Part shown: positions 7,231 to 58,181 of the stretch, in pieces | Layout: the number at the start of each line of letters is the position of its first letter | How positions within the stretch are numbered: position 1 is the stretch's first letter | Assembly: GCF_001548675.1 (NCBI RefSeq) | Contig: NZ_CP010834.1 | Span: 124,001-188,000 of the forward strand | Source: Methanobrevibacter sp. YE315 | Lineage (GTDB): Archaea > Methanobacteriota > Methanobacteria > Methanobacteriales > Methanobacteriaceae | Length of the DNA stretch: 64,000 bases | Direction: 5' to 3' | Notes under the pieces: model-generated | Databases searched by the model: none | Told to the model about the DNA's origin: nothing | The model's input: only the letters and a program-made list of their open reading frames with translations | Position numbers and translations under genes: made by a program

Positions 7231-7270
7231 TCATATATAAAGTTTTTCGAATGAAAGTGCTTACTTGCAT
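7231..7270 (-). promoter_or_regulatory. Shared operator-BRE-TATA promoter, copy 1
   Basis: The plus strand shows tcatatataaa (TATA box on the minus strand), then gtttttcga (BRE region), then the operator ATGAAAGTGCTTACTTGCAT at 7251-7270. Its arms match with one mismatch. It drives the secreted protein gene ending at 6661. Confidence 0.7.
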
Positions 7271-7665: not shown

Positions 7666-8040
7666 TTAGTTTAACATGTTTGAATCAACTTCATCAACAA
7701 TGTCGCCAGCTGGTGAAATTAAAACTAATTTTACGTAATAGTCGTTACTGTTTGCGTGGAAACTGAAGTATGCTGTTCCTGAGGAACCGCAGAGTCCTGG
7801 GTTATCTTCAACGTAGTTTACATCAACGAAGTCAACACCAGTGGACTCACTGATTTCCCAGTGGTAACCGGTACCAGCATTGTATGGTACGGACATGGTG
7901 AAATCACCGTTATCTAATATTGGTCCAGAAACATCACTTGTTGCTGAAACGCAACTTAAACCAACAACTATTGAAAAGATTGCTAATGCAGCAAAAATCA
8001 AATTTGTCTTACTTAAAAGTCTATCTGAATTTAATTTCAT
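7666..8040 (-). CDS. Chagasin-like (I42) cysteine peptidase inhibitor, secreted
   Basis: This 124-residue protein has a signal peptide (hydrophobic run about residues 11-31, ending CVSATS). The mature domain shows the two clearest chagasin motifs: GTGYHWE, corresponding to the NPTTGY-W loop, and GSSGTAYFSFHA, corresponding to the GxxGxxxFxF loop. The usual RPW loop is not evident near the C-terminus, so the domain may be shortened. Family members block papain-like cysteine peptidases. Outside the cell it could protect surface proteins or target host or neighbour peptidases (inference). It carries the shared operator upstream. Confidence 0.75.
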   Translation of the reverse strand: MKLNSDRLLSKTNLIFAALAIFSIVVGLSCVSATSDVSGPILDNGDFTMSVPYNAGTGYHWEISESTGVDFVDVNYVEDNPGLCGSSGTAYFSFHANSNDYYVKLVLISPAGDIVDEVDSNMLN

Positions 8041-8167: not shown

Positions 8168-8208
8168 GTTATTTATAAAGTTTTCCGCATGTAAGTGCTT
8201 ACTTGCAT
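8168..8208 (-). promoter_or_regulatory. Shared operator-BRE-TATA promoter, copy 2
   Basis: TATA-like gttatttataaag, then ttttccgc, then the operator ATGTAAGTGCTTACTTGCAT at 8189-8208, read toward the left. It drives the chagasin-like inhibitor gene. Confidence 0.7.
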
Positions 8209-26265: not shown

Positions 26266-26287
26266 AATAGAGAAATTAATCTCTATT
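26266..26287 (-). terminator. Hairpin overlapping the adhesin stop codon
   Basis: AATAGAGA (26266-26273) pairs with TCTCTATT (26280-26287). The TAG stop of the adhesin lies inside the stem. The same AATAGAGA hairpin ends the other adhesin genes and the two small RNAs at 51 and 58 kb. Confidence 0.5.
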
Positions 26288-28697
26288 GTCTAGGAAATGG
26301 AAATGTAATTGTCTCGTTTACCGCAGTGTATTTGTAGTTGCCTCCATATGCAACAACAACGGTTAATCGATTTATGATTCCGTCAACATCAAAGTAGACA
26401 TTGCCGTTTGAGCCTATCGCAAGCCTGTAGGTTGTTCCTTCATAGGTAACTCTTAAATAGCCTGTTGCATCACTGTTTATGCTAACTGTGATACGTGTAA
26501 ACCTTGGACTTTCATAATAGGTTGTGCCAACCTGAATTCTTGGCTTGTATTTTGTTACAGTGAAATAAGCTGTTTTTGTTTGTCCCCTAAAGTTGTTGCT
26601 TCCTGCATAAGCTACACTTGCGGAATAGCTGCCGGCCTTTAATCCGGAAACGCTTAAGGTTGCGGTACCATTAACGATTTGAACCCTTTTAGTGACGCCA
26701 TTAACGGTGATTTTTACAAACCCGTTGACATTGTCCGCCATTTTGACATTGATGACGGCGTCATGGCCAACCTTGATGCTTTTGACGGAAACGGATTTGA
26801 TTGGAGTTCCTTTGCTGACGTTGAAGGTAGCGTTTAAGGTCTGGGCATTGTAGTTTGAGGTGCCTGCATAGATTGCAGTGACTTCATATGTGCCGACTCT
26901 TAAACCTGAAAATGAAGTGTTTGCAGTATGGTTAATGATTTGGGTCCTGACAGCCTTGCTGTTTACAATGATTTTGACAAAGCCGTTGACGTAGCTTGAA
27001 AATTCAACGGTGACTGTTTCGTCATTGCCGTAGGTAATTGAAGGGGCGGAAATTGAAGTCATTGGAGTTCCTTTAAGAACTTCAAAGCAAGATGAAGCCT
27101 CTTCAGCATAGTATCTGTAGTTTCCACCGTATTTTATGGTAAAGTTATGTGTTCCTACCTTTATGCCGCTGACATATGCAACTGCCTTTCCCTTTGTGAT
27201 TTTTGCTTTGTAGTCCTTGCCTTCGATTAGTATATGCACATAACCGGTGGCATCCTTGGCCGTTTCGACTTCAATCATAGTGGATTCGCCGAAATATGTT
27301 TTTTCGGATGGGCAAACAGTGATTCCCTGATATGTTTTTCCCACGACAAGGTTGCTTGAAACGGTTTGGGCGCTGCAGTTTGAGTTTCCGTCATAGCTTG
27401 CCACAATTTCATAGGTTCCCTCACTTAAAGCGTCTGCAGTAACAATTGCCTTGCCTGAGCTGATGGCAGAGGTATATGTTCTGTTGTTTACAGCAATCCT
27501 CACATTCCCATATGCGTTTTTGGATATGGCAACTTCAATGTCGAAACTTTTATTAGGAAGCGCAAAATCAGTGGATATGATTATGTGCGGTGATTCCAAT
27601 ACTGTGCAGTTGTATGCATTTCCCTTATAGATTGGACCGCCCGGAGAATACCATCCTATAATGGAACAGTCGGTGGCATTCCCGTTAAAGATTGCAGCAC
27701 CATTCTTTTCGGCAGAACAGTTTGTGAAAAAACAGTTGTTGGCATTCGCCGAATAGATTCCGCCTCCATATTTGACGGCGGAACAGTTGTCAAAAGTGCA
27801 GTTGCGAATATTGCTTATGGTATTGTATGAATAGAATGCTCCCCCGTTTCCACCGGAATGGCAATTGGTGAAAATGCAGTCTTCCAGATTGGAAGTTGCA
27901 TAGATTCCTCCGCCGATTTCTTCGGCAGAACAGTTTTCAAAAGAGCATTTTTTCACATTCAGCTTCCCGAAATATAAAATGCCCCCTCCTTTTCCACCGG
28001 AATGGCAGTTCACAAACAAACAGTTTTGAACATTTCCGTTGGCTGCAGAAAAGTAAACGCCGCCACCGGATTTGGTTGCATAACAGTTTTCAAAAGAGCA
28101 GTTGTTTGCATTTCCGTTAACGATTCCACCGCCATTATTGGCAGAACAGTTCACAAATGAGCATTCATATGCATTAAAGTTGTAAATGGCACCACCTGCT
28201 CCAGCAGAACAGTTCACAAAGCAGCAGCCATAGGCATTGCCTCTGACTGTGGTATAGATTGCCCCGCCAAGACTATCGCAGGAGCAGTCCTTGAAAGAAC
28301 AGTTATAGATTGTGCATGTTCCGTTCACTGCGGAATTGATGGTGTTGATAAAATTGATGTTTTTCAATATGACGTTAGTGTTTTTCACGTTGAAAACGTT
28401 TGATGCCCTGCTTGCATCAATGGTATGATTTTTACCGTCAACCGTTATTGCATCTCCAATGTCGATGCCGCTTTTGTGTGACCCGTCATTGACGTAGTCG
28501 TTTTCCAGGTACACTGTCTGGCCGCTTGAAGCGTTTTCAACCAGGCTTGCCAAATCAGCAAAGCTTCCGGTCTCTTCAAGAGGACTTTCACCTAGAACCT
28601 CATCAGCCGAAGCATTTTCATCAGCTGCACTAACGGCTCCCATTGTGATGATAACCAGAATCAACAGGCCGATTACCATCACCTTATCAAATTTCAT
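26283..28697 (-). CDS. Adhesin-like secreted protein: beta-helix plus Ig-like repeats
   Basis: From the ATG at 28697, behind GGGAGGTTAT, the protein has about 804 residues. It has a signal peptide (MKFDKVMVIGLLILVIITMG then AVSAAD). Residues 90-380 form a right-handed beta-helix with about 12 imperfect Cys-containing repeats of the form NCSFENCSA..GGGIYx. The C-terminal 430 residues hold four to five Big_3/Ig-like domains (GFVKITVNG...GTYEVTAIYAGTSNYNAQT). No C-terminal membrane anchor is visible. Such proteins coat Methanobacteriales cells and are thought to mediate adhesion; the ligand is unknown. It is divergent from a small secreted-protein gene. Confidence 0.85.
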   Translation of the reverse strand: MKFDKVMVIGLLILVIITMGAVSAADENASADEVLGESPLEETGSFADLASLVENASSGQTVYLENDYVNDGSHKSGIDIGDAITVDGKNHTIDASRASNVFNVKNTNVILKNINFINTINSAVNGTCTIYNCSFKDCSCDSLGGAIYTTVRGNAYGCCFVNCSAGAGGAIYNFNAYECSFVNCSANNGGGIVNGNANNCSFENCYATKSGGGVYFSAANGNVQNCLFVNCHSGGKGGGILYFGKLNVKKCSFENCSAEEIGGGIYATSNLEDCIFTNCHSGGNGGAFYSYNTISNIRNCTFDNCSAVKYGGGIYSANANNCFFTNCSAEKNGAAIFNGNATDCSIIGWYSPGGPIYKGNAYNCTVLESPHIIISTDFALPNKSFDIEVAISKNAYGNVRIAVNNRTYTSAISSGKAIVTADALSEGTYEIVASYDGNSNCSAQTVSSNLVVGKTYQGITVCPSEKTYFGESTMIEVETAKDATGYVHILIEGKDYKAKITKGKAVAYVSGIKVGTHNFTIKYGGNYRYYAEEASSCFEVLKGTPMTSISAPSITYGNDETVTVEFSSYVNGFVKIIVNSKAVRTQIINHTANTSFSGLRVGTYEVTAIYAGTSNYNAQTLNATFNVSKGTPIKSVSVKSIKVGHDAVINVKMADNVNGFVKITVNGVTKRVQIVNGTATLSVSGLKAGSYSASVAYAGSNNFRGQTKTAYFTVTKYKPRIQVGTTYYESPRFTRITVSINSDATGYLRVTYEGTTYRLAIGSNGNVYFDVDGIINRLTVVVAYGGNYKYTAVNETITFPFPRQ

Positions 28698-28808
28698 AAG
28701 ATAACCTCCCAATGTTAATATTTTATTGCGCTCTGTATATTAAATTTTACATTTTTCGCAAGGATTAAATCAGAAAAGGCCTAAATTAATAAATATTGAG
28801 GTGTAAGC

Positions 28809-33609: not shown

Positions 33610-33650
33610 ATGTAAGTAGGCACTTACATTCGAAAAGCTTTATATATGAG
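33610..33650 (+). promoter_or_regulatory. Shared operator-BRE-TATA promoter, copy 3 (perfect palindrome)
   Basis: The operator ATGTAAGT-AGGC-ACTTACAT at 33610-33629 has perfectly matching 8-bp arms. It is followed by tcgaaaagc and TTTATATAT (33639-33647). It points right, toward the hairpin-rich transcript with a 13-codon ORF. Confidence 0.75.
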
Positions 33651-33730
33651 CTTGTATAAACTAAATAGTAGGTAGGATGAGGCCTACGAAATTCCAAACT
33701 CAATAAAATAAATATCAAGAGGTGAAAATC

Positions 33731-33772
33731 ATGACACGCGCTATTAGGAGGTTAATGTATATGTGGATTTAA
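33731..33772 (+). CDS. Thirteen-residue micro-ORF in the operator-driven transcript
   Basis: The peptide is MTRAIRRLMYMWI. GAGGTGA precedes the ATG with good spacing, and a second AGGAGG occurs inside it. The peptide is short, basic and hydrophobic. It could be a leader peptide or a small membrane-active peptide; without a homologue this is only a candidate. A second operator-driven transcript at 38 kb has a 13-codon ORF of the same length. Confidence 0.35.
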   Translation: MTRAIRRLMYMWI

Positions 33773-38112: not shown

Positions 38113-38152
38113 CACTATATAAAGTTTTTCGAGTGTAAGTGCCTATTTACAT
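38113..38152 (-). promoter_or_regulatory. Shared operator-BRE-TATA promoter, copy 5
   Basis: cactatataaag, then tttttcga, then GTGTAAGT-GCCT-ATTTACAT at 38133-38152 (arms with two mismatches). It points left to the 37.7-38.1 kb short transcript. Confidence 0.65.
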
Positions 38153-38867: not shown

Positions 38868-38906
38868 AGTATATAAAGTTTTTCGAGTGTAAGTGCCCAC
38901 TTGCAT
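38868..38906 (-). promoter_or_regulatory. Shared operator-BRE-TATA promoter, copy 6
   Basis: agtatataaag, then tttttcga, then GTGTAAGT-GCCC-ACTTGCAT at 38887-38906. It points left to the Thr/Asn-rich surface protein gene. Confidence 0.7.
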
Positions 38907-48278: not shown

Positions 48279-48306
48279 AAAATAGAGAATAAAAATCCTC
48301 TATTTG
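48279..48306 (-). terminator. Hairpin overlapping the adhesin 1 stop codon
   Basis: AATAGAGa and cCTCTATT pair around aataaaaat. It is related to the other adhesin terminators, with the stop codon inside the stem region, and is flanked by A/T runs. Confidence 0.5.
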
Positions 48307-50915
48307 ATTGTTATTGAACGTGTTTTTGTTTCTGCAAGATATTTGTAGTTGCCGGCATAACTGGTTTTTAGGGTGTAGGTTCCAGGTGCCAAATCAGGCA
48401 GTGTACGGGTTGCCACACCTTTAGTTATTTTGGCCTTGTATGTGCTTCCGTTGACTTCAAATTTCACGTTTCCAGGTGCATCTTCAGCCAGATTTGCAGT
48501 AAGGACGGTCTTGCCGTCCACTGTAGCTTTTGAAACGGACAGTTCCGGTGAAATCTTTGTCACTTCAAAGTTGGTCTTGATTGTTTGGGCATTGTAGCGG
48601 GCGGTTCCGGCATAGTAGATGTGCAGGCGATATTTTCCTGAGGCAAGGCTGGAAACTGAAGCTATTGCCAATCCGTTCTCGATGTGAATCTTGTCAGTCA
48701 GAATATTGTTTCCATTCTCATCAGAGACGGTGAACCAGATGTTCCCGTTGACATTGTTGACTTTGACCTTTATTGTAGGATCTGAGCCAACAGCACAATT
48801 GGAAACTTCCACAGAAGCTATTGGGGTTGCCTTAAGCATATTAATATTGAATGAGACTTCTTGAGCATCAAAATATGCGCTTCCGCCGTAGGTCACCTTA
48901 ATCACATTCTCTCCAACATTCAAGATGCCCAACGGAATGTTTAATATTTCAGATTTTCCCTTTATGGCGAAAGCCTTATGGGATGCGCCGTTTACGGTTA
49001 CATGGGCATTGCCTACAATGCGGTCACTATTCAAATAAATATCGAGTGATGTATCTTTAGCGTCATAGTTGATTTGCCTTGAGAAATTGTCAAATGAGTA
49101 ATAATCATATGGGGAAAGATAAAGATAACTGATTGGTTTTGCCTTGACTACCTCAAAGTTAAGTGTTTCATTTTGAGCCTTATGATTAACGTTTTCGTCA
49201 TAAATAACTTTAATATCATATGTTCCGGGTTTCATGATGCCTAACGAGAATGACATTTCGGAATGGCCGGTAGTATTTCTTATATAAGTTAAATTATTGA
49301 TTTTAACTGTGATGGAACCGGGAACAGCTGTGTTTCTCAAGTATACATAAAGTCTGGATTGATTGTATGAGAATTGGATTTTGTCATTATTATGAATATA
49401 TTTTTCTCGTTTGACACTAATGCTTCTTATCGAATCAACTTTGTTTACTTTTAATGTGGTTGTTACGTTTTGGGCTTTGTAGTCATTACTTCCCTGATAA
49501 GTGGCCCGGACTTCATATGTGCCAGAAGATAAATCGGAGAAATAAACTGATGATTCGGGTTTGACTTTTTTAGTTTTTCCGTTTACTGTGATGTTCACAT
49601 AACCTGCACTGGCTTCACCATCAACAAAGACATAGGCTGACTCTCCATAATTTACATCCCTTGTTCTGATGGAATTGATTGCAGCAAGGGCTTGGCATTC
49701 GATGAAAGTGCAATTGGTATCAGTACCTTTACATATGGCTGCATTAGAATCTTTAGAAGAACAGTTCCTGAAAATGGAATCCTTGGCATTACCATTATAA
49801 ATTGCACCGCCGGCATTAGTGGCATAACAATCTGCAAAGGAACAATTATAGGCACTACCTCCAGAAATAGCTCCGCCTCGATTATAAAAACCATTAGAAG
49901 CAGAACAATTTACAAAGGAACAGTTATAGGCACCTCCAGAACGAATAGCTCCACCGTAAGCACCAAAATTAGCGGAAGCAAAACAATTTACAAAGGAACA
50001 GTTATAGGCACTTCCATGTTGGATAGCACCACCAAAACTCTCATAGCCGCCGGAAGCAGAACAATCTAGAAAAGAACAGTCATGAGCACTGCCATTATAT
50101 ATAGCACCGCCAATAGTAGCAGAACAATCTACAAAAGAACAATTATAGGCATCACCATGATAAATAGCGCCGCCATAAGCATATTCACGATCACAAGAAG
50201 CGAAACAATCTTCAAAGGAACAATTATAAGCAGAACCTTCACAAATAGCGCCACCATAACCATATCCATAATTAAATCTGCCGACAGCAGAACAATCCAC
50301 AAAGGAACAATTATAAGCAGAACCCTTATAGATAGCACCACCATAAGCAGTAGCACCGACTGTCCAGGAAGTACACTCTATGAAAGTGGAATTATAGGCG
50401 TTCCCATAAGCAATAGCGCCGCCATAAGCATTAACCCCATATTCATTACAGGAGATGGAACAACCTACAAAGGAACAATTATCAACAGTGCATTTATAGC
50501 TATTGCCGTAACCTACAACCGTTGTATTTTTATTATCTACAAATTTTATGTTTTTCAATGTAACCTTTTGGATAGTGGTAATGTAAAAAATGTTTGTAAG
50601 TGATTTTTTTCCATCTATTGTGTGTCCCTGTCCGTCAATGGTTATGGATTTAGTGATGCGAACAACAGAGTCTTGCTTGTCGTTTGAATAATCCTTCTGC
50701 AACTTCAATGTTTTCCCGCTTTCTGTATTGTCCACCAAGCTCTGAAGTTCATCAAAGTCACCAGGTGACGCCTCAAGTCCGTCAGTATCTAAAGCATCAA
50801 CGCTCAAAACGTCATCTGATGCATCCGTAATGTTGTTGTCGGCCGCATTTGCAGCCCCCATTGTTAAAATGGCCAGCAAAAATAAACCGGCTATCAACAG
50901 CTTATCAAATTTCAA
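48300..50915 (-). CDS. Adhesin-like secreted protein 1: beta-helix plus Ig-like repeats
   Basis: This 871-residue protein starts at a TTG behind GGGGCGAT. The signal peptide is MKFDKLLIAGLFLLAILTMG then AANAAD. At about residues 95-400 a right-handed beta-helix holds some 11 repeats of the type GGAIYxGSAYNCSFVDCSA. Ig-like Big_3-type domains run from about 410 to the end (GNVKFEVNGSTYKAKITKG ... GTYTLKTSYAGNYKYLAETK). There is no C-terminal membrane anchor. The last 80 residues are nearly identical to those of adhesin 3, suggesting gene conversion. A small-RNA unit with the shared operator lies about 300-680 nt upstream. Confidence 0.88.
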   Translation of the reverse strand: MKFDKLLIAGLFLLAILTMGAANAADNNITDASDDVLSVDALDTDGLEASPGDFDELQSLVDNTESGKTLKLQKDYSNDKQDSVVRITKSITIDGQGHTIDGKKSLTNIFYITTIQKVTLKNIKFVDNKNTTVVGYGNSYKCTVDNCSFVGCSISCNEYGVNAYGGAIAYGNAYNSTFIECTSWTVGATAYGGAIYKGSAYNCSFVDCSAVGRFNYGYGYGGAICEGSAYNCSFEDCFASCDREYAYGGAIYHGDAYNCSFVDCSATIGGAIYNGSAHDCSFLDCSASGGYESFGGAIQHGSAYNCSFVNCFASANFGAYGGAIRSGGAYNCSFVNCSASNGFYNRGGAISGGSAYNCSFADCYATNAGGAIYNGNAKDSIFRNCSSKDSNAAICKGTDTNCTFIECQALAAINSIRTRDVNYGESAYVFVDGEASAGYVNITVNGKTKKVKPESSVYFSDLSSGTYEVRATYQGSNDYKAQNVTTTLKVNKVDSIRSISVKREKYIHNNDKIQFSYNQSRLYVYLRNTAVPGSITVKINNLTYIRNTTGHSEMSFSLGIMKPGTYDIKVIYDENVNHKAQNETLNFEVVKAKPISYLYLSPYDYYSFDNFSRQINYDAKDTSLDIYLNSDRIVGNAHVTVNGASHKAFAIKGKSEILNIPLGILNVGENVIKVTYGGSAYFDAQEVSFNINMLKATPIASVEVSNCAVGSDPTIKVKVNNVNGNIWFTVSDENGNNILTDKIHIENGLAIASVSSLASGKYRLHIYYAGTARYNAQTIKTNFEVTKISPELSVSKATVDGKTVLTANLAEDAPGNVKFEVNGSTYKAKITKGVATRTLPDLAPGTYTLKTSYAGNYKYLAETKTRSITIK

Positions 50916-51221
50916 GATAATCGCCCCAACAATTGAAAAATTAAATTATAATTAATTTATTATCAAAAGAGACATATATAGTTAATTTACAGAAAATTTT
51001 TGGCATTGTTAAAAAATGATATGTAAAACATAAAAAGCGTTTATATGATATTCTCATTTTTTTGAATTTCAGAAATATATATTTTTAAAAAATATAATGA
51101 TTATTTTACACCTAAAAACAGGATATGATGTGGAATTTGTGATTGAAAGAGAAAACTCGTTTTAAAAGCAAACTTTTCATGCAAAACAGGTTCAATTGAA
51201 AAAAATCAGAGAATTTTTAAA
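50916..51221. other. Adhesin 1 leader/promoter region
   Basis: Very AT-rich. TATA-like agacatatatag lies near 50968-50980 and others near 51070. It probably contains the adhesin's own promoter. No gene. Confidence 0.4.
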
Positions 51222-51541
51222 AATTAAAAAATAGAGAGGTAAGTCTCTATTTTTTTTTTAATCAAGGAAGGACAATAACCGGCAGCGCATGTTATATAAT
51301 TTTCTAGGGCAATATACTCGTAATGAGTATTGGATAATTAAACTTTATCAATGTTTTTGGAGTATTATAGGATAAATCCTAATAAAGAAGTGTTATTTTG
51401 AAATTTAATAAAAACGGGAGTATAAAAGTATGAGCGATCAGGAACTCATACTTTTTTTGGGTTTATTTTGCTGTCCGTGTTTTCATGTCTTCTTTGATTT
51501 AATTTTTAATGAAGTAGTCAAGCTGTATCAACTTTCTACTT
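51222..51541 (-). ncRNA. Candidate small RNA upstream of adhesin 1, copy A
   Basis: About 320 nt from the shared promoter to a hairpin terminator (AAAAATAGAGA / TCTCTATTTTTT at 51225-51256). It contains stem AAGTATGAG / CTCATACTT (51426-51434 with 51445-51453) and stem ATACTC / GAGTAT (51314-51330), separated by a long conserved single-stranded stretch with ACTCCCGTTTTTATT. There is no conserved ORF. A second copy lies at 57775-58121 with the first stem retained but changed in length and loop, evidence that the structure matters. Confidence 0.6.
51225..51256 (-). terminator. Terminator of small RNA copy A
   Basis: ATAGAGA / TCTCTAT stem around six nt with A and T runs on either side, read leftward. 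Confidence 0.6.
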
Positions 51542-51562
51542 AATTATTCATATGAACGGGCT

Positions 51563-51601
51563 CATATATAAAGTTTTTCGCATGTAAGTGCTTACTTGCA
51601 T
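51563..51601 (-). promoter_or_regulatory. Shared operator-BRE-TATA promoter, copy 7
   Basis: catatataaag, then tttttcgc, then ATGTAAGTGCTTACTTGCAT at 51582-51601. The surrounding 60-plus nt are identical to the copy at 58.1 kb except for one base. Confidence 0.75.
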
Positions 51602-51701
51602 CTTAAAACATGTTTAAAAGAAGTATTGGGATTTATAGATTGTTTAATGGTGAATATTGGTTAATTGGACAGTTATAATCAAAATATTAAAAAAAGAAGA
51701 A

Positions 51702-51729
51702 AAAAATAGAGAAGTTGAATCTCTATTTT
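51702..51729 (-). terminator. Hairpin at the 3' end of adhesin 2
   Basis: AAATAGAGA (51704-51712) with TCTCTATTT (51720-51728). The stop codon is inside the right arm. The same unit, including the preceding aaaaaaagaagaaaaaa, occurs at 54581. Confidence 0.55.
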
Positions 51730-54460
51730 AGATAGTTATGTCTTTTGATATTACTCTTACGGAGTATTTGTCATTTCCAGTGTATTTTACTATAATATTA
51801 TGTGTGCCAGGTATTACACCATCTATGGTTGCAGTAGCTACTCCATTTGTAATGTTAACAAAGTACGCAGTTCCTTCGTAGGTTATTCTCATTACACCTT
51901 CCACATCAGGATTTATTTTAGCAGTTATTACTGTTTTTCCGTTCACTGCTTTTGCAGACACTGACATTGGTGCTGGAATAATTTTATTCACGGAAAAACT
52001 AGTAGTCCTGGTTTCTGCATTGTATTTGTAGTTTCCAGCATATTTTGCAGTAACATTGTATGTTCCAACCTTTAAACCTGAGATGGTGATTGTTGCAACA
52101 CCATTTTTGATTGGGGTTTTGTATGTTTCTCCGTTCACAATGATGTGGACGTTTCCTGATGCATCACCAGCTAGATTGACTGTAATAGTTTTAACCCCGA
52201 ATTCGACATGGGTTGTAGTCACTTTAAGTCCAGGTGATGATTTGGATACTGTAAATGTTTTTGAAACTGTTTCTGCATTGTATTTGTAGTTTCCAGCATA
52301 TTTTGCAGTAACATTGTATGTTCCAGCCTTTAAACCTGAGATGGTGATTGTTGCAACACCATTTTTGATTGGGGTTTTGTATGTTTCTCCGTTCACAATG
52401 ATGTGGACATTTCCTGGTGCATCGTTGGCTAAATTGACTCTAATATCAGTAGTTCTACCAACAAGGGTGTCCCAAGCCATAACGCTCATTTCAGGAGATG
52501 ATTTGGATACTGTAAATGTTTTTGAAACTGTTTCTGCATTGTATTTGTAGTTGCCGGCGTATTTTAATGTAACACTGTATGTTCCGGCCTTTAAATTATT
52601 AATATCCACATAAGCGGCGCCGTTTTCGATTGCAACTTTGTAGGTGTTGTCTCCGATTATGAATCTGACAAATCCTGTCGCATCCTTAGCTAGGGTGGCT
52701 GTGATTCTTTCTGTTTCACCCACTGCAATATTATTTGTTTCAAGTTGCATTCCCTGTTTGAATTTGCCTACATGGAATGTGTCTGTCATTGTTTCTGCAG
52801 TGTGGTATGCATTACCTCCGTATGTTGCTGTAACGGTATATGCTCCGTCAGCCAAGTTTGGCACATCAACGGATACTGCACCTGATTTGATTTGCAGACG
52901 GTAGGTTTCGCCGTTAATGGTAATTCTAACATATCCTGTTGCTTTTTTAGACATTGTTACTTTAACGTTTGCTGTTTCACCGGTTTTTGCAAAATTGTTT
53001 GCAAGTGTTAACTGTGGAGATCTCTTATTGACAACAAGACTGACATTCAACGGATTAGCACCAACACAACTTAATTCGAGCATATAATTTCCAGGGGCAG
53101 CATCGATAGGCAAATCGGAACCTGAAATGGTTGAAAATGAATTGGTCAATTTATTGTCTTTGTAGATTTTAACATTGACTGGCACATAAACGTTTATTCC
53201 ATTGGATTGGGTTTTTATTTGTAGTTTTCCTCCTTCTCCATAATTTACTGTTAAATTTGAACAGGATAATGTTATTGGAATAAAAGTACAGTTTCTATAG
53301 TCTCCGTCGATATAAATGCCTCTTTCGGTTGTGCAGTTTATGAATGCGGAATCATATGCATTTCCCTTCTTAATAATTGCGGCATTTCTCATTTCACAAA
53401 TGCACTCGACAAAGGTGCAGGAGTATGCATCGCCCATGCAAATTGCAGCACCTTCATAAGAATAGCATTTCTCAAAGTAACAGTTATAAGCGTCACCGCT
53501 TTCAATGGCTCCACCGGATGACCCTCCAGCTCCGTCAACCACATAGCATCCTATAAATGAGGATTCATAAGCGTTTCCTCCGTAAATGGCTCCACCATAT
53601 TCAGACCGGCAATTCACAAAGGAACAATTACGGGCGTCACCTTGGATAGCTCCACCACAGCCTGCTGTCCAAATAGCAAAAGCTCTACATTCTTCAAAAG
53701 TGGAATTGTATGCATCACCTATAATTGCGCCCCCACCTACGGAATAGCATTCAATAAATGAGCAGTCATAGGCATTACCATTATATATTGCTCCACCAAA
53801 GCCATCGCAATCAGGTTCCCATCCGTCATAATAGGAGTATTTGGCATAACAGTTTATAAAATTACAATTGTATGCATCACCATTGTATATTGCCCCACCT
53901 TTACAGATATGATGGTCGCTTTTATAATATTGCCTTTCATTTTCATAGCGATACGCGTTACAGTTTGTAAAAGTGGAATCGTATGCGGTTCCGTTGTAAA
54001 TGGCTCCACCGTCCTTTTCAGAAGTGCAGTCAGTAAATGTACAGTTGATTATTGTACATGTTCCATAAACTGCAGAGTAGTTTTTGGTAAAACTGTTTTT
54101 AAAATTGATGTTTTTCAAGGTTACTTTGGCATTGTTGACATGGAATATGTTTGATTTTCCGTTTGCATCAATTGTATGACCCTGCCCGTCAATGGTAATT
54201 GCCTTTGAGATTGTAACCCTGTTTGAAGATTGTGAATTAATATAATCCTTATCTAAAGTCAATGTTTTCCCGCTTGAAGTTCCGCTCACCAGACTTGACA
54301 GTTCGCCAAAGTCACCTTCAGAAACTTCAAGTTCATCTGTTGGTTCTGCTGTGAGAACCTCGTCCGTCGTGTCAGTAATGTTTGCATCGGCCGCGCTTAC
54401 GGCACCGAGTGTAAAAATAAGCAAGAGTATACTGACCAGTATAATCATATTAAATTTCAA
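51728..54460 (-). CDS. Adhesin-like secreted protein 2: beta-helix plus six Ig-like repeats
   Basis: About 910 residues from a TTG at 54460, 5 nt after GGGGTTGT. The signal peptide is followed by a beta-helix at about 95-390 (GGAIYNGNAYDCSFIECYS). Six Ig-like domains follow with the pattern GNVHIIVNGETYKTPIKNGV ... GTYNVTAKYAGNYKYNAET. Two of these, at 52010-52290 and 52270-52550, are almost identical at the DNA level with a period of about 258 bp, so the domain number may vary by slippage. There is no C-terminal anchor. It is next to adhesin 3, separated by 130 nt with no small RNA between them. Confidence 0.88.
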   Translation of the reverse strand: MKFNMIILVSILLLIFTLGAVSAADANITDTTDEVLTAEPTDELEVSEGDFGELSSLVSGTSSGKTLTLDKDYINSQSSNRVTISKAITIDGQGHTIDANGKSNIFHVNNAKVTLKNINFKNSFTKNYSAVYGTCTIINCTFTDCTSEKDGGAIYNGTAYDSTFTNCNAYRYENERQYYKSDHHICKGGAIYNGDAYNCNFINCYAKYSYYDGWEPDCDGFGGAIYNGNAYDCSFIECYSVGGGAIIGDAYNSTFEECRAFAIWTAGCGGAIQGDARNCSFVNCRSEYGGAIYGGNAYESSFIGCYVVDGAGGSSGGAIESGDAYNCYFEKCYSYEGAAICMGDAYSCTFVECICEMRNAAIIKKGNAYDSAFINCTTERGIYIDGDYRNCTFIPITLSCSNLTVNYGEGGKLQIKTQSNGINVYVPVNVKIYKDNKLTNSFSTISGSDLPIDAAPGNYMLELSCVGANPLNVSLVVNKRSPQLTLANNFAKTGETANVKVTMSKKATGYVRITINGETYRLQIKSGAVSVDVPNLADGAYTVTATYGGNAYHTAETMTDTFHVGKFKQGMQLETNNIAVGETERITATLAKDATGFVRFIIGDNTYKVAIENGAAYVDINNLKAGTYSVTLKYAGNYKYNAETVSKTFTVSKSSPEMSVMAWDTLVGRTTDIRVNLANDAPGNVHIIVNGETYKTPIKNGVATITISGLKAGTYNVTAKYAGNYKYNAETVSKTFTVSKSSPGLKVTTTHVEFGVKTITVNLAGDASGNVHIIVNGETYKTPIKNGVATITISGLKVGTYNVTAKYAGNYKYNAETRTTSFSVNKIIPAPMSVSAKAVNGKTVITAKINPDVEGVMRITYEGTAYFVNITNGVATATIDGVIPGTHNIIVKYTGNDKYSVRVISKDITI

Positions 54461-54580
54461 AATATACAACCCCTAAAAAATTTTTTTAAAACTTAATTTA
54501 TGATTAATTTTTTAAAGTTAATATATATTTCTGAATGGAAAATTTGTTTTCCAAGTGATATTTTGTTAAAAAAAGAAGAA

Positions 54581-54608
54581 AAAAATAGAGAAGTTGAATC
54601 TCTATTTG
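54581..54608 (-). terminator. Hairpin at the 3' end of adhesin 3
   Basis: AAATAGAGA with TCTCTATTT around agttgaa, identical to the one ending adhesin 2. Confidence 0.55.
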
Positions 54609-57529
54609 ATTGTTATTGAACGTGTTTTTGTTTCTGCAAGATATTTGTAGTTGCCGGCATAACTGGTTTTTAGGGTGTAGGTTCCAGGTGCCAGATCAGA
54701 CAGTGTGAGTGTTGCTACACCTTTAACTATTTGAGCTTTGTATGTGCTTCCGTTGACTTCAAATTTCACGTTTCCAGGTGCATCTTCAGCAATGCTTGCA
54801 GTAAGAACGGTCTTTCCGTCCACAGTGGCTTTTGAAACGGACAGTTCAGGAGAAATCTTTGCCACTTCAAAGCTGCTTTTTATGGTTTGGGTATTATAAT
54901 ATGCATTTCCGGAATAATACACATGCAGGTTATAACTGCCTACGCTTAAACCTGGAATTGAAATATTCGCCCAATTATTTTCAATGCTGCTTTTATTTGA
55001 AAATATTGTTGTTTTGTTTGCATCTGAAATTGTAAACCATATGTTGCCGTTAATATTTTTCACGTTAACTTTAACTGTCACATCTTTGCCGGGAGCCCAA
55101 TTTGAGACTTCTACAGAATTGATAGGGGTTCCCTTAACCACTTCAAAAGTGTCCTTAATGGTTTGCGCATTATAATTGGTGCTGCCGGCATAGTATATAT
55201 GTACCTTATACTTTCCTAATTTAAGGCCTGAAACGGATTGGGTGGCTACTCCATTTTCAATATGGATTTTATCGGTTAAGATTTTAGTATTGCTTGCATC
55301 CGAAATGGTAAACCATACATTACCGTTGATTTTGCTGCTGGACATAATTGCAGTAATTGTTGCATTATCGCCAAATCCAACCTGATTGGACATATTGACT
55401 GAACTTATTGGAGTTGCCTTAACCACAGTTATTGAAAGTGTCACATCCTGTGCTGCAAAATATGCGCTGCCGGCATAACTCACTTTAATATCATTCACCC
55501 CTACTTTCAAAACATTTAAAGGAATGCTTAAGGAAGTTGTATTGGATGTTTTTAAAACTTTATGGGATGCGCCGTTAACGGTAATGTGCAGATTGCCAGG
55601 CACACGATTGCTTTTCAGGGAAATGTCAAGTGTAGGATTTTCTCCATCATAGGCCACTTCTTTTTTGTCATATGAAACATAATTGTAATAATTGTAAGCC
55701 TTAATATAACTAATTGGATTACATTTATTCACTTTAAAGGCCATTGTTTTAGTTTGAGCATTGTAATTAGTATCTCCCGCATAAGTTGCTACAATATTAT
55801 GTGAACCTAACTTTAAAATACCCAAAGGAATAGAAATTGAAGAACGGCCGTTGATATTTACTATTTTTGATATTCCGTCTATGGTAACATTAAAATAACC
55901 CGGCACATTATTGTTTTTCAGTGCAATAGCGAGTCTAGCACTGGTAAATGAAAATTCAACTTTTTTCATGTTCTCAGAAATGTATGGATTTACAATCCTA
56001 AACAGAAAAATCGGGTCGGTTTTCAATACATTAAAGGTAAGTGCTTTGGTTTGCGCTGAAAAGTATGCACTTCCTGCATAGCTTACTTTAATATCATATG
56101 AACCTACATTTAAAACACCTAACGGAATCAATAAATAATAATCGTAGCTGTAACCGCTGCCTGAAGAGGTTTTAATTGTTTGAGTAACGCCATTTATAGT
56201 AATGTGGACATTTCCCGGCACGCTGTCGTCAAACATTAAAATTTTAAGTGAGGAATTTTCGTTGATAAAAGTAACGTTCCTATTGTAATTAACATTAAGT
56301 CCTGTAACATAAATGCTTTTAATTGGATTTTTTTTAACAACATTAAATGAAATGTTTTCGGTTTGAGCATTATAGTTTGCACTTCCAGCATAACTCACTT
56401 TAATATTATTTATGCCCAAATTCAAAACGCCTAAATCAACATAAATATTATAAGAAGTTTTAATTTTAATCTTTTGAGTAATGCCATTCACTTCAATATG
56501 CACATTGCCAGGCACATTATTATAATTCATCATAATGTTAAGTGTGGCATTTTTACCGTCATAATAATATTCTCCATTGTTCATGCCTTTGACTTCAATG
56601 CCGTAAATTGGATCGATTTTAGTTACTTCAAAAGTGGATGTTATTGTTTGAGCTTCAAATTTATCGCTTCCAGCATAGCTCACTGTAACATTATATAAAC
56701 CAACATCAAGATAACCTAAATCAAAATACCCCCATCCTGTTTTAACTACTTTGGTTTTCCCATTTGCAGTAATGTTTACATTGCCGGGGGCCCTGCCATC
56801 TCCTGCAACAGAAATGCGTATATAGTTACCGGAACTAACCAAAATTGATTGGATTGCGGCATTATTTCTACAATTTACAAATGTACAATTGTAATCGTCA
56901 CCCCAAACAATAGCGGCATTACTATTTTTAGTAGTACAATTCACAAAAGTACAATTATAAGCATTTCCACCATCAATTGCACCACCAGACATTCTGGCAA
57001 AGCAATTTACAAATGTACAGTTGTATGCATTTCCACCATCAATTGCACCACCATAATCACTAGAACAATTTACAAAAGAACAATTAATGGCTCTACAATT
57101 TTTTTCATTGGAGAGAATACCACAATAACCATTTACAAAATTGATATTCTTCAATACAACATTTTGGCTGTTAACCACGAAGATTCTTTTCATGTTATTG
57201 CCGTATATAGTATGGCCTTGACCATCAATGTTTATCGCTTTTGTAATTTCAACATATCCTCCAGATTCATCAATTACATAATCCTTTTCCAGTGTCAATG
57301 TTTTTCCGCTTGAAGTTCCGCTTACCAAACTTTTAAGTTCAGTAAAATCGCCCTGCTGTGCAGATTCAAGTTCATCTGTAGAATTAATGCTTAAAACTTC
57401 ATCAACAGGGTCCGCGCTGAGAACCTCATCCGTCGTGTCAGTAATGTTTTCATCGGCCGCGCTTACGGCACCGAGTGTAAAAATAAATAATAAAATTATA
57501 CTGACAAGTAAAATTTTATTCAATTTCAA
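54602..57529 (-). CDS. Adhesin-like secreted protein 3: short beta-helix and about nine Ig-like repeats
   Basis: About 975 residues from a TTG at 57529 after GGGGTTGT. The signal peptide is LKLNKILLVSIILLFIFTLG then AVSAAD. The beta-helix is short (about residues 115-215, four repeats such as GGAIDGGNAYNCTFVNCFA). The rest is a rod of about nine Ig-like domains of 90 residues (VPGNVHITINGVTQTIK ... YDIKVSYAGSAYFSAQT). It looks like a long stalk displaying a small head. The last 80 residues nearly equal those of adhesin 1. A small-RNA unit lies about 250-590 nt upstream. Confidence 0.88.
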   Translation of the reverse strand: MKLNKILLVSIILLFIFTLGAVSAADENITDTTDEVLSADPVDEVLSINSTDELESAQQGDFTELKSLVSGTSSGKTLTLEKDYVIDESGGYVEITKAINIDGQGHTIYGNNMKRIFVVNSQNVVLKNINFVNGYCGILSNEKNCRAINCSFVNCSSDYGGAIDGGNAYNCTFVNCFARMSGGAIDGGNAYNCTFVNCTTKNSNAAIVWGDDYNCTFVNCRNNAAIQSILVSSGNYIRISVAGDGRAPGNVNITANGKTKVVKTGWGYFDLGYLDVGLYNVTVSYAGSDKFEAQTITSTFEVTKIDPIYGIEVKGMNNGEYYYDGKNATLNIMMNYNNVPGNVHIEVNGITQKIKIKTSYNIYVDLGVLNLGINNIKVSYAGSANYNAQTENISFNVVKKNPIKSIYVTGLNVNYNRNVTFINENSSLKILMFDDSVPGNVHITINGVTQTIKTSSGSGYSYDYYLLIPLGVLNVGSYDIKVSYAGSAYFSAQTKALTFNVLKTDPIFLFRIVNPYISENMKKVEFSFTSARLAIALKNNNVPGYFNVTIDGISKIVNINGRSSISIPLGILKLGSHNIVATYAGDTNYNAQTKTMAFKVNKCNPISYIKAYNYYNYVSYDKKEVAYDGENPTLDISLKSNRVPGNLHITVNGASHKVLKTSNTTSLSIPLNVLKVGVNDIKVSYAGSAYFAAQDVTLSITVVKATPISSVNMSNQVGFGDNATITAIMSSSKINGNVWFTISDASNTKILTDKIHIENGVATQSVSGLKLGKYKVHIYYAGSTNYNAQTIKDTFEVVKGTPINSVEVSNWAPGKDVTVKVNVKNINGNIWFTISDANKTTIFSNKSSIENNWANISIPGLSVGSYNLHVYYSGNAYYNTQTIKSSFEVAKISPELSVSKATVDGKTVLTASIAEDAPGNVKFEVNGSTYKAQIVKGVATLTLSDLAPGTYTLKTSYAGNYKYLAETKTRSITIK

Positions 57530-57774
57530 AATAATAAACAACCCCTAAAAAATTTCATAATTTAATTAATATTAATTATTTTAGAGCTATATATATATAT
57601 TTTTGAATGTAATATTTTTTTACCAAAATAAGTGAGTTTAATGAGCTATTTTTTTTAATTTTGAGGATTTATGCTTCTTGGTTTTTCAGGCAAAATCCTC
57701 TTTTAAAATCAGGTTCGATTAGAAAAATAATTTAAGGAAATTAAAGATTTTATTAAAATTAGTGAATTATTTAA
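57530..57774. other. Adhesin 3 leader/promoter region
   Basis: A strong TATA run (ctatatatatatattttt) lies near 57586-57602, the likely adhesin promoter. The rest is AT-rich. Its right part resembles the region at 51160-51220 before adhesin 1. Confidence 0.45.
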
Positions 57775-58121
57775 AAATTAAAAAATAGAGAAATGAGTCT
57801 CTATTTTTGATCAATGAAGGACAATTGCTTTCGGCCCATACATATATTTTCTAATGTTTTTTCTAGGGCAATATACTCGTAATGAGTATTGGATAATTAA
57901 ACTTTATCAATGTTTTTTGGAGTATTATATAGGATAATAGTATTAATTTAACCATCTTTCAATAAAGAAGTGTTATTTTGAAATTTAATAAAAACGGGAG
58001 TAAAAAAAGTATGATGGTTCATACTTAAAATTTTTTTGGGTTTATTTAGGCCGCATTTATCAATTGTCTTCTTTGATGTAATTTTTAATGAAGTAGTTTA
58101 AGTTATTTCAACTCTCTACTT
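57775..58121 (-). ncRNA. Candidate small RNA upstream of adhesin 3, copy B
   Basis: About 345 nt from the shared promoter to a hairpin terminator at 57781-57808. It shares with copy A two nearly identical blocks (tctagggcaatatactcgta ... and aataaagaagtgttattttg ...). The first stem is AAGTATGA / TCATACTT (58007-58014 with 58019-58026), shorter with a different loop but still perfect. The second stem ATACTC / GAGTAT (57873-57889) is unchanged. No ORF is conserved between the copies. Confidence 0.6.
57781..57808 (-). terminator. Terminator of small RNA copy B
   Basis: TAGAGA / TCTCTA stem with flanking A and T runs, the same design as the adhesin and copy A terminators. Confidence 0.55.
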
Positions 58122-58142
58122 AATTATTCATATGAATGGGCT

Positions 58143-58181
58143 CATATATAAAGTTTTTCGCATGTAAGTGCTTACTTGCAT
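58143..58181 (-). promoter_or_regulatory. Shared operator-BRE-TATA promoter, copy 8
   Basis: catatataaag, then tttttcgc, then ATGTAAGTGCTTACTTGCAT at 58162-58181, essentially identical to copy 7. Confidence 0.75.

Follow-up and report, generated by a model that had tools for sequence, protein, structure and literature searches.

The genome of Methanobrevibacter sp. YE315 carries two similar stretches of DNA, each in front of an adhesin-like gene, and this raises the question of what they encode and whether they act on the adhesins around them. The window analysed here is the whole 64,000 nt stretch formed by bases 124001-188000 of the single-contig 2.27-Mb genome. An initial annotation had described the two copies, here A and B, as a duplicated small RNA candidate with a common promoter, long conserved blocks and a terminator hairpin but no open reading frame, and these claims are borne out by the sequence and the alignment. 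The copies are 81% identical over about 390 nt including the promoter (pairwise alignment), with blocks of 100% identity alternating with diverged or inserted stretches, and a DNA similarity search found only these two copies in the genome. No open frame of at least 20 aa is common to A and B on the transcribed strand. Both copies are on the minus strand, as are the surrounding adhesins, and start and end of the transcript are therefore reversed relative to the coordinates first given. Each copy precedes an adhesin gene yet has its own terminator, as had been proposed; in addition, a separate TATA box lies about 50-60 nt 5' of the TTG start of the adhesin downstream of A and of the one downstream of B. 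A and B are predicted from these features to be non-coding units with their own promoter and terminator, and our reading, given a probability of about 0.6, is that they are genes of a trans-acting archaeal sRNA of about 320-345 nt, controlled through an inverted repeat, in which a linker would block the start sites of adhesin mRNAs. The presumed start of the copy A RNA was set about 25 nt past the TATA box and its end at the terminator. The units and their promoters are as follows.

51224-51543, minus strand: copy A, predicted non-coding RNA of about 320 nt (fold z = -6.9, no shared ORF)
57778-58123, minus strand: copy B, predicted non-coding RNA of about 345 nt (fold z = -5.8)
51565-51600, minus strand: copy A promoter, inverted repeat TGCAAGT-AAGC-ACTTACA abutting BRE/TATA (CGAAAAACTTTATATA), exact pattern match
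58145-58180, minus strand: copy B promoter, inverted repeat identical to that of A, with BRE/TATA (pattern match)

The minus-strand 5' start of both units is TGCAAGTAAGCACTTACATGCGAAAAACTTTATATA, in which the inverted repeat is followed by a strong archaeal BRE/TATA. The repeat is 18 bp long, TGCAAGTAAGCACTTACATGC, and is fused to the BRE-TATA. A scan with the pattern TGYAAGTNNNNACTTRCANNCGAAAANNTTTATATA, allowing at most two mismatches, found 17 sites in the YE315 genome, and the pattern was present in 48 of the 67 genus genomes and 68 of the 139 family genomes, the latter representing three genera. The reversed pattern, used as a control, gave no matches in the genus or the family genomes. 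The highest number per genome was 54 copies (G097, genus g9). A scan for promoters of the sigma-70 style was disregarded, the host being an archaeon. In many of the loci read, the promoter sits 20-120 nt 5' of genes for small secreted proteins. The element looks like the mark of an undescribed regulon under a postulated regulator, and it suggests that A and B are co-regulated with small secreted proteins; such co-regulation would imply an exchange of surface proteins. Five further copies of the promoter were found in the window by pattern match.

7234-7269, minus strand: further promoter copy
8172-8207, minus strand: further promoter copy
33611-33646, plus strand: further promoter copy
38116-38151, minus strand: further promoter copy
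38870-38905, minus strand: further promoter copy

These five precede small secreted proteins and other genes, among them a gene for a chagasin-like peptidase inhibitor (7666-8040). Very short frames (13-19 codons), which have strong ribosome sites of the type GGAGGTGAAAA, are also found behind the promoter, in the window at about 33650-33760 (plus strand) and in another genome (L100, G012 C38), and may encode small peptides. CUCCC as a 3'UTR mark of the whole regulon was rejected, being found in 8 of 48 cases behind regulon protein genes and in 37 of 315 in the comparison.

Separate folding of A and B gave the same architecture, comprising a 5' hairpin, a long-range helix, a AAGUAUGA hairpin, an AUACUC/GAGUAU hairpin and a terminator. 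The z values given above are relative to dinucleotide shuffles, none of which, out of 100, folded as well.

51512-51541, minus strand: copy A 5' hairpin, AAGTAG/CTACTT with inner AAGTTG/CAGCTT (predicted fold)
58091-58121, minus strand: copy B 5' hairpin (predicted fold)
51261-51498, minus strand: copy A long-range helix, with arms at 51470-51498 and 51261-51288 that close the linker-bearing domain (fold)
57810-58077, minus strand: copy B long-range helix, with arms at 58049-58077 and 57810-57837 (predicted fold)
51424-51455, minus strand: copy A family hairpin AAAAGTATGAG/CTCATACTTTT, 11 bp, arms 51424-51434 and 51445-51455 (fold, covariation)
58007-58026, minus strand: copy B family hairpin AAGTATGA/TCATACTT, 8 bp (fold, covariation)
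51381-51421, minus strand: copy A linker ACTCCCGTTTTTATTAAATTTCAAAATAACACTTCTTTATT, 41 nt, core 51396-51413, antisense to adhesin start sites
57961-58001, minus strand: copy B linker, the same 41 nt as in A, core 57976-57993 (alignment, target matches)
51314-51330, minus strand: copy A invariant hairpin ATACTC/GAGTAT (sequence, fold)
57873-57889, minus strand: copy B invariant hairpin ATACTC/GAGTAT (sequence, fold)
51213-51255, minus strand: copy A terminator hairpin, arms 51244-51255 and 51226-51237, with T-run (fold)
57775-57808, minus strand: copy B terminator hairpin, arms 57798-57808 and 57781-57791, with T-run (fold)

The main stem, here the family hairpin, had been said to keep its pairing in spite of a different length, and this holds with 11 bp in A and 8 bp in B; the second stem, ATACTC/GAGTAT, is unchanged between the copies, also as claimed. 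In the long-range helix AUCAAAGAAGACA pairs with UGUCCUUCnUUGAU and the pairing is extended inward. Both arms of the inner part are rewritten between A and B with the pairing kept (joint shuffle P = 0.0034), and the energies are -12.2 and -9.6 kcal/mol for own arms and -4.0 and -8.2 kcal/mol for crossed arms. The units end in a AATAGAGA/TCTCTATT hairpin with a T-run, a type also seen at the ends of adhesin genes. Neither A nor B had an Rfam match at gathering score. Covariation between A and B alone is modest; it becomes strong once homologues from other species are included.

At the DNA level, searches of 67 genus genomes and then 139 family genomes gave only weak, AT-rich matches beyond YE315, none of them convincing, and several of these were adhesin starts that run the opposite way. 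The covariance model R1, for which only the two window copies were used, found A, B and one weak partial match in the 67 genus genomes, and exact-pattern scans of public contigs for the small hairpin gave no matches. The promoter, in turn, drives non-coding units, often in tandem, in five other Methanobrevibacter species of the rumen (G033, G036, G039, G051 and G048). These sister units have the layout ATTAAGTAGAG...AAAAGCATGA[loop]TCATGCTTTT-ATTCTCCC-TTTT, which matches that of the 5'-most 150 nt in both window copies. A contig scan also found one motif of the sister RNAs in the uncultured Methanobrevibacter bins RUG823, RUG593, RUG10921, RUG13973 and RUG13115, which are of rumen origin. A second covariance model (R2), for which only the RNAs of G033, G036 and G039 were used and the window copies left out, gave 12 clear matches in five species. 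In the 64-kb window its best match was A (E = 0.022; 0.77 genome-wide) and its third B (E = 4), which are weak scores, both matches lying in the register that the promoter defines. The GUGGUGGUGAG motif found ahead of the hairpin in the RNAs of other species is absent from A and B. The R2 score alone is weak, but position, order of elements and promoter agree, and A and B are for that reason likely to be related to the sister RNAs; at most they would form a divergent branch of that family with an extra 3' domain.

Homologues that had lost the stem were sought, and the homologues found keep it with many double changes. In the alignment of the family hairpin, which takes in some weak matches that are perhaps ordinary terminator hairpins, 98% of the cells were paired and 13 of 15 pairs had double changes, a level reached by none of 500 shuffles. 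Sixteen hairpins aligned by hand, namely the window copies, the clear family matches and two similar 3' hairpins from G013, had no broken pair at stem positions 3-10. The structured non-coding duplicate of the initial annotation is supported, while its minus strand, promoter family, relatives and long-range helix had been overlooked.

The sister units adjoin adhesin-like or beta-helix/Ig-repeat genes in G033, G036, G048 and G051. In G039 they adjoin a TIR-NTPase gene; this TIR-domain/NACHT-type NTPase gene (L156 764-3295, G039 C115) has sister units on both sides and possibly encodes a defence protein. The loop of one sister-RNA hairpin in G048 (L158 / L127 413-548, C117) holds a run of 11 C, possibly a slippage-prone tract, and a candidate pseudoknot, AAGTA-GAGTT/TACTT-AACTC, was seen by eye in the 5' element of the other species' RNAs. 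The same promoter also drives other tandem non-coding units (L167/L114, G035 C49; L164, G010 C17; L160, G040 C23; L170, G041 C70), which are spaced 221-443 nt apart, are unlike the window RNA in sequence and have C-rich motifs (CTCCC, ATTCCC and runs of 6-10 C). In G013 (L163 1077-2558, C36) promoter-linked genes encoding small secreted proteins have this same hairpin at their ends, with a TTCTCCC or C8 tail, and one unit there resembles a decayed secreted-protein gene. The shared hairpin and tail and the decayed gene suggest that the sRNAs may derive from the 3' ends of promoter-linked secreted-protein mRNAs.

The linker contains UUUUAUUAAAUUUCAAAA, and many adhesin genes begin with the complement of this sequence, TTTTGAAATTTAATAAAA (TTG start codon, MKFNK). 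With at most two mismatches, 19 sites for the linker core were found in the genome, two of them in the RNA genes; 7 of the other 17 lie exactly at start codons of adhesin-type frames. Duplex energies were calculated for a target sample of 464 kb with 370 gene starts, in which simple rules served to assign the gene starts and to classify genes as adhesins. Four adhesin-like genes of the window are among the predicted targets.

48300-50915, minus strand: adhesin-like gene following A, with Big_3_5 repeats, a TATA box of its own and a TTG start (duplex rank 14; rank 18 with opening costs)
51728-54469, minus strand: adhesin-like gene lying between A and B, with its predicted target site at 54445-54462 (duplex rank 7; rank 14 with opening costs)
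54602-57541, minus strand: adhesin-like gene following B, in which the predicted target site, 57514-57531, has one mismatch (duplex rank 13)
26283-28712, minus strand: adhesin-like gene pointed to by the initial annotation, predicted target at the start codon region and GGGAGG (duplex rank 4)

Adhesins made up nine of the top 14 among the 370 start regions (P = 6e-5) and, with opening costs included, ranked 1, 3, 5, 8, 14 and 18 (P = 5e-4); the adhesin starts are related sequences and hence not independent tests, so that these P values are indicative. Clear discrimination of adhesins was obtained only with segments overlapping the linker block, in A and B alike. Among 400 dinucleotide-preserving shuffles, none matched the count of nine or the energy difference seen with the real sequence, and one reached the P value of the rank test. 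The interaction prediction that had been called for is in this way favourable as regards duplex energies and unfavourable as regards simple co-folding without pseudoknots, which gave no adhesin preference and is a method that cannot represent pairing in a closed domain. The target first suggested, ACTCCC against the GGGAG at 28.7 kb, does exist as a match but of 5 nt only, which is too weak; adhesin mRNAs are retained as predicted targets through the 41-nt linker antisense to their start codons and not through the GGGAG site. A duplex of -34 kcal/mol (L087) was set aside, as it lies inside an apparent ABC-type coding region.

A corresponding preference is found in a second species, G036. Its four sister-RNA tails, which differ in sequence from the window linker and were compared as an independent check with 230 gene starts of that genome, all favour adhesin-like starts (P = 0.004-0.04), whereas a 16S-type anti-SD sequence, used as control, has no such preference (P = 0.24). 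Two G036 adhesins have SD regions to which these tails are perfectly complementary, one over 14 nt and the other over 12 nt, and one of the two is the gene flanked by the RNAs. The tail AUUCCUCC in G048 matches GGAGGAAU ahead of the next adhesin, and in the small sample from G051 the target signal was absent.

The complementarity could also be a relic, if a real RNA had captured an inverted adhesin 5' end and the match had no present function. The plus strand of the linker does resemble an adhesin start (GTGTTATTTTGAAATTTAATAAAA), and GTGTTATTTTGAAAATTAATAAAA is carried by adhesin starts of other species. This is nevertheless rather unlikely, as the 41-nt block shows no difference between A and B although the sequence around it has diverged, and as G036 has a different sequence in the same place that again matches adhesin SD regions. 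Less probable still is that the exposed C-rich segments bind a protein or ribosomes in general, so that the RNA would be a decoy or act against SD sites at large: the dissimilar promoter-driven units of G010, G035, G040 and G041 also have CUCCC or longer runs of C, but adhesin starts are preferred over the SD sites of other genes in two species, and the 16S-type sequence does not share this preference.

A cis-acting leader, in which readthrough of the terminator into the downstream adhesin would let the structure regulate that gene, is given an equally small chance. The terminator after each unit and the TATA box of each adhesin argue against it, and the G036 units point away from or towards an adhesin and do not lead into one, although in both copies and in G048 the unit is on the same strand as the adhesin and upstream of it. 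Hardly probable at all is a mobile element of the small, non-autonomous kind, or an ordinary repeat arising by recombination among adhesin genes. Two close copies beside repetitive, mutually paralogous adhesin genes are what this would give; however, matching terminal inverted repeats, as in a MITE, are absent at the unit ends, the genome has two copies only, the long-range helix has two-sided compensatory changes and the promoter is common to a regulon.

The most likely function is that the RNA pairs with adhesin mRNAs at their start sites and so silences their translation, by analogy with the systems discussed below. A transcription factor binding the inverted repeat beside the BRE/TATA would control both A and B and, through the same element, a set of small secreted proteins. 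The RNA, if made as predicted, would fold into the 5' hairpin, the long-range helix closing a multibranch domain, and the family hairpin, followed by the exposed C-rich segment (CUCCC) and the linker. The 41-nt linker would then pair in the cell with the start-codon regions of many adhesin mRNAs (TTTTGAAATTTAATAAAA: TTG or ATG plus the MKFNK codons) and block ribosome loading, so that the regulon would swap one set of surface proteins for another. More tentatively, and at less than even odds, the same may apply genus-wide, as a surface-switching regulon of gut Methanobrevibacter and relatives in which one factor at TGYAAGTnnnnACTTRCA-BRE-TATA induces secreted proteins together with tandem, fast-evolving, adhesin-silencing sRNAs, each lineage evolving its own C-rich anti-start RNAs.

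The adhesin-like genes, of which Methanobrevibacter genomes have dozens, are thought to govern which bacteria and surfaces these methane producers bind. If the reading is true, an RNA family directed at adhesin starts under a secreted-protein promoter would be a concrete and testable switch of surface proteins, and a new family would be added to the few archaeal sRNAs of known target. Among bacteria, the Hfq-dependent sRNAs MicA and OmrA/OmrB, sometimes duplicated, silence outer-membrane proteins at the start site. They are alike in silencing surface proteins but unrelated to A and B, which belong to a methanogen with BRE/TATA promoters. Adhesin-like proteins are a described class of surface proteins in Methanobrevibacter (PMC2812497, PMC11532034), with 105 genes in M. 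ruminantium (PMC2812497), and the targets predicted here are of this class, being Big_3_5 or beta-helix surface proteins. In the literature searched, neither an RNA regulator of these proteins nor a mechanism choosing which adhesins Methanobrevibacter displays was found.

In Methanosarcina mazei, anti-RBS sequences in the loops of sRNA154 and sRNA41 block translation (PMC5867862); these RNAs act in nitrogen and acetate metabolism, whereas the A and B units sit among adhesin genes. The closest likeness is to sRNA162 of the same species, in which stem-loops and a 39-nt single-stranded linker mask the RBS and start of a trans-encoded mRNA, as found by experiment (PMC3510493). A and B similarly have a linker of 41 nt between hairpins that lies over start codons. 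They differ in belonging to another genus, in sequence as far as tested (no Rfam match), in being duplicated, in being predicted to target an entire gene family and in a promoter common to secreted-protein genes, and their action is predicted where that of sRNA162 is experimental. A and B with their relatives are best read as a new archaeal sRNA family that would block adhesin translation in the manner of sRNA162.
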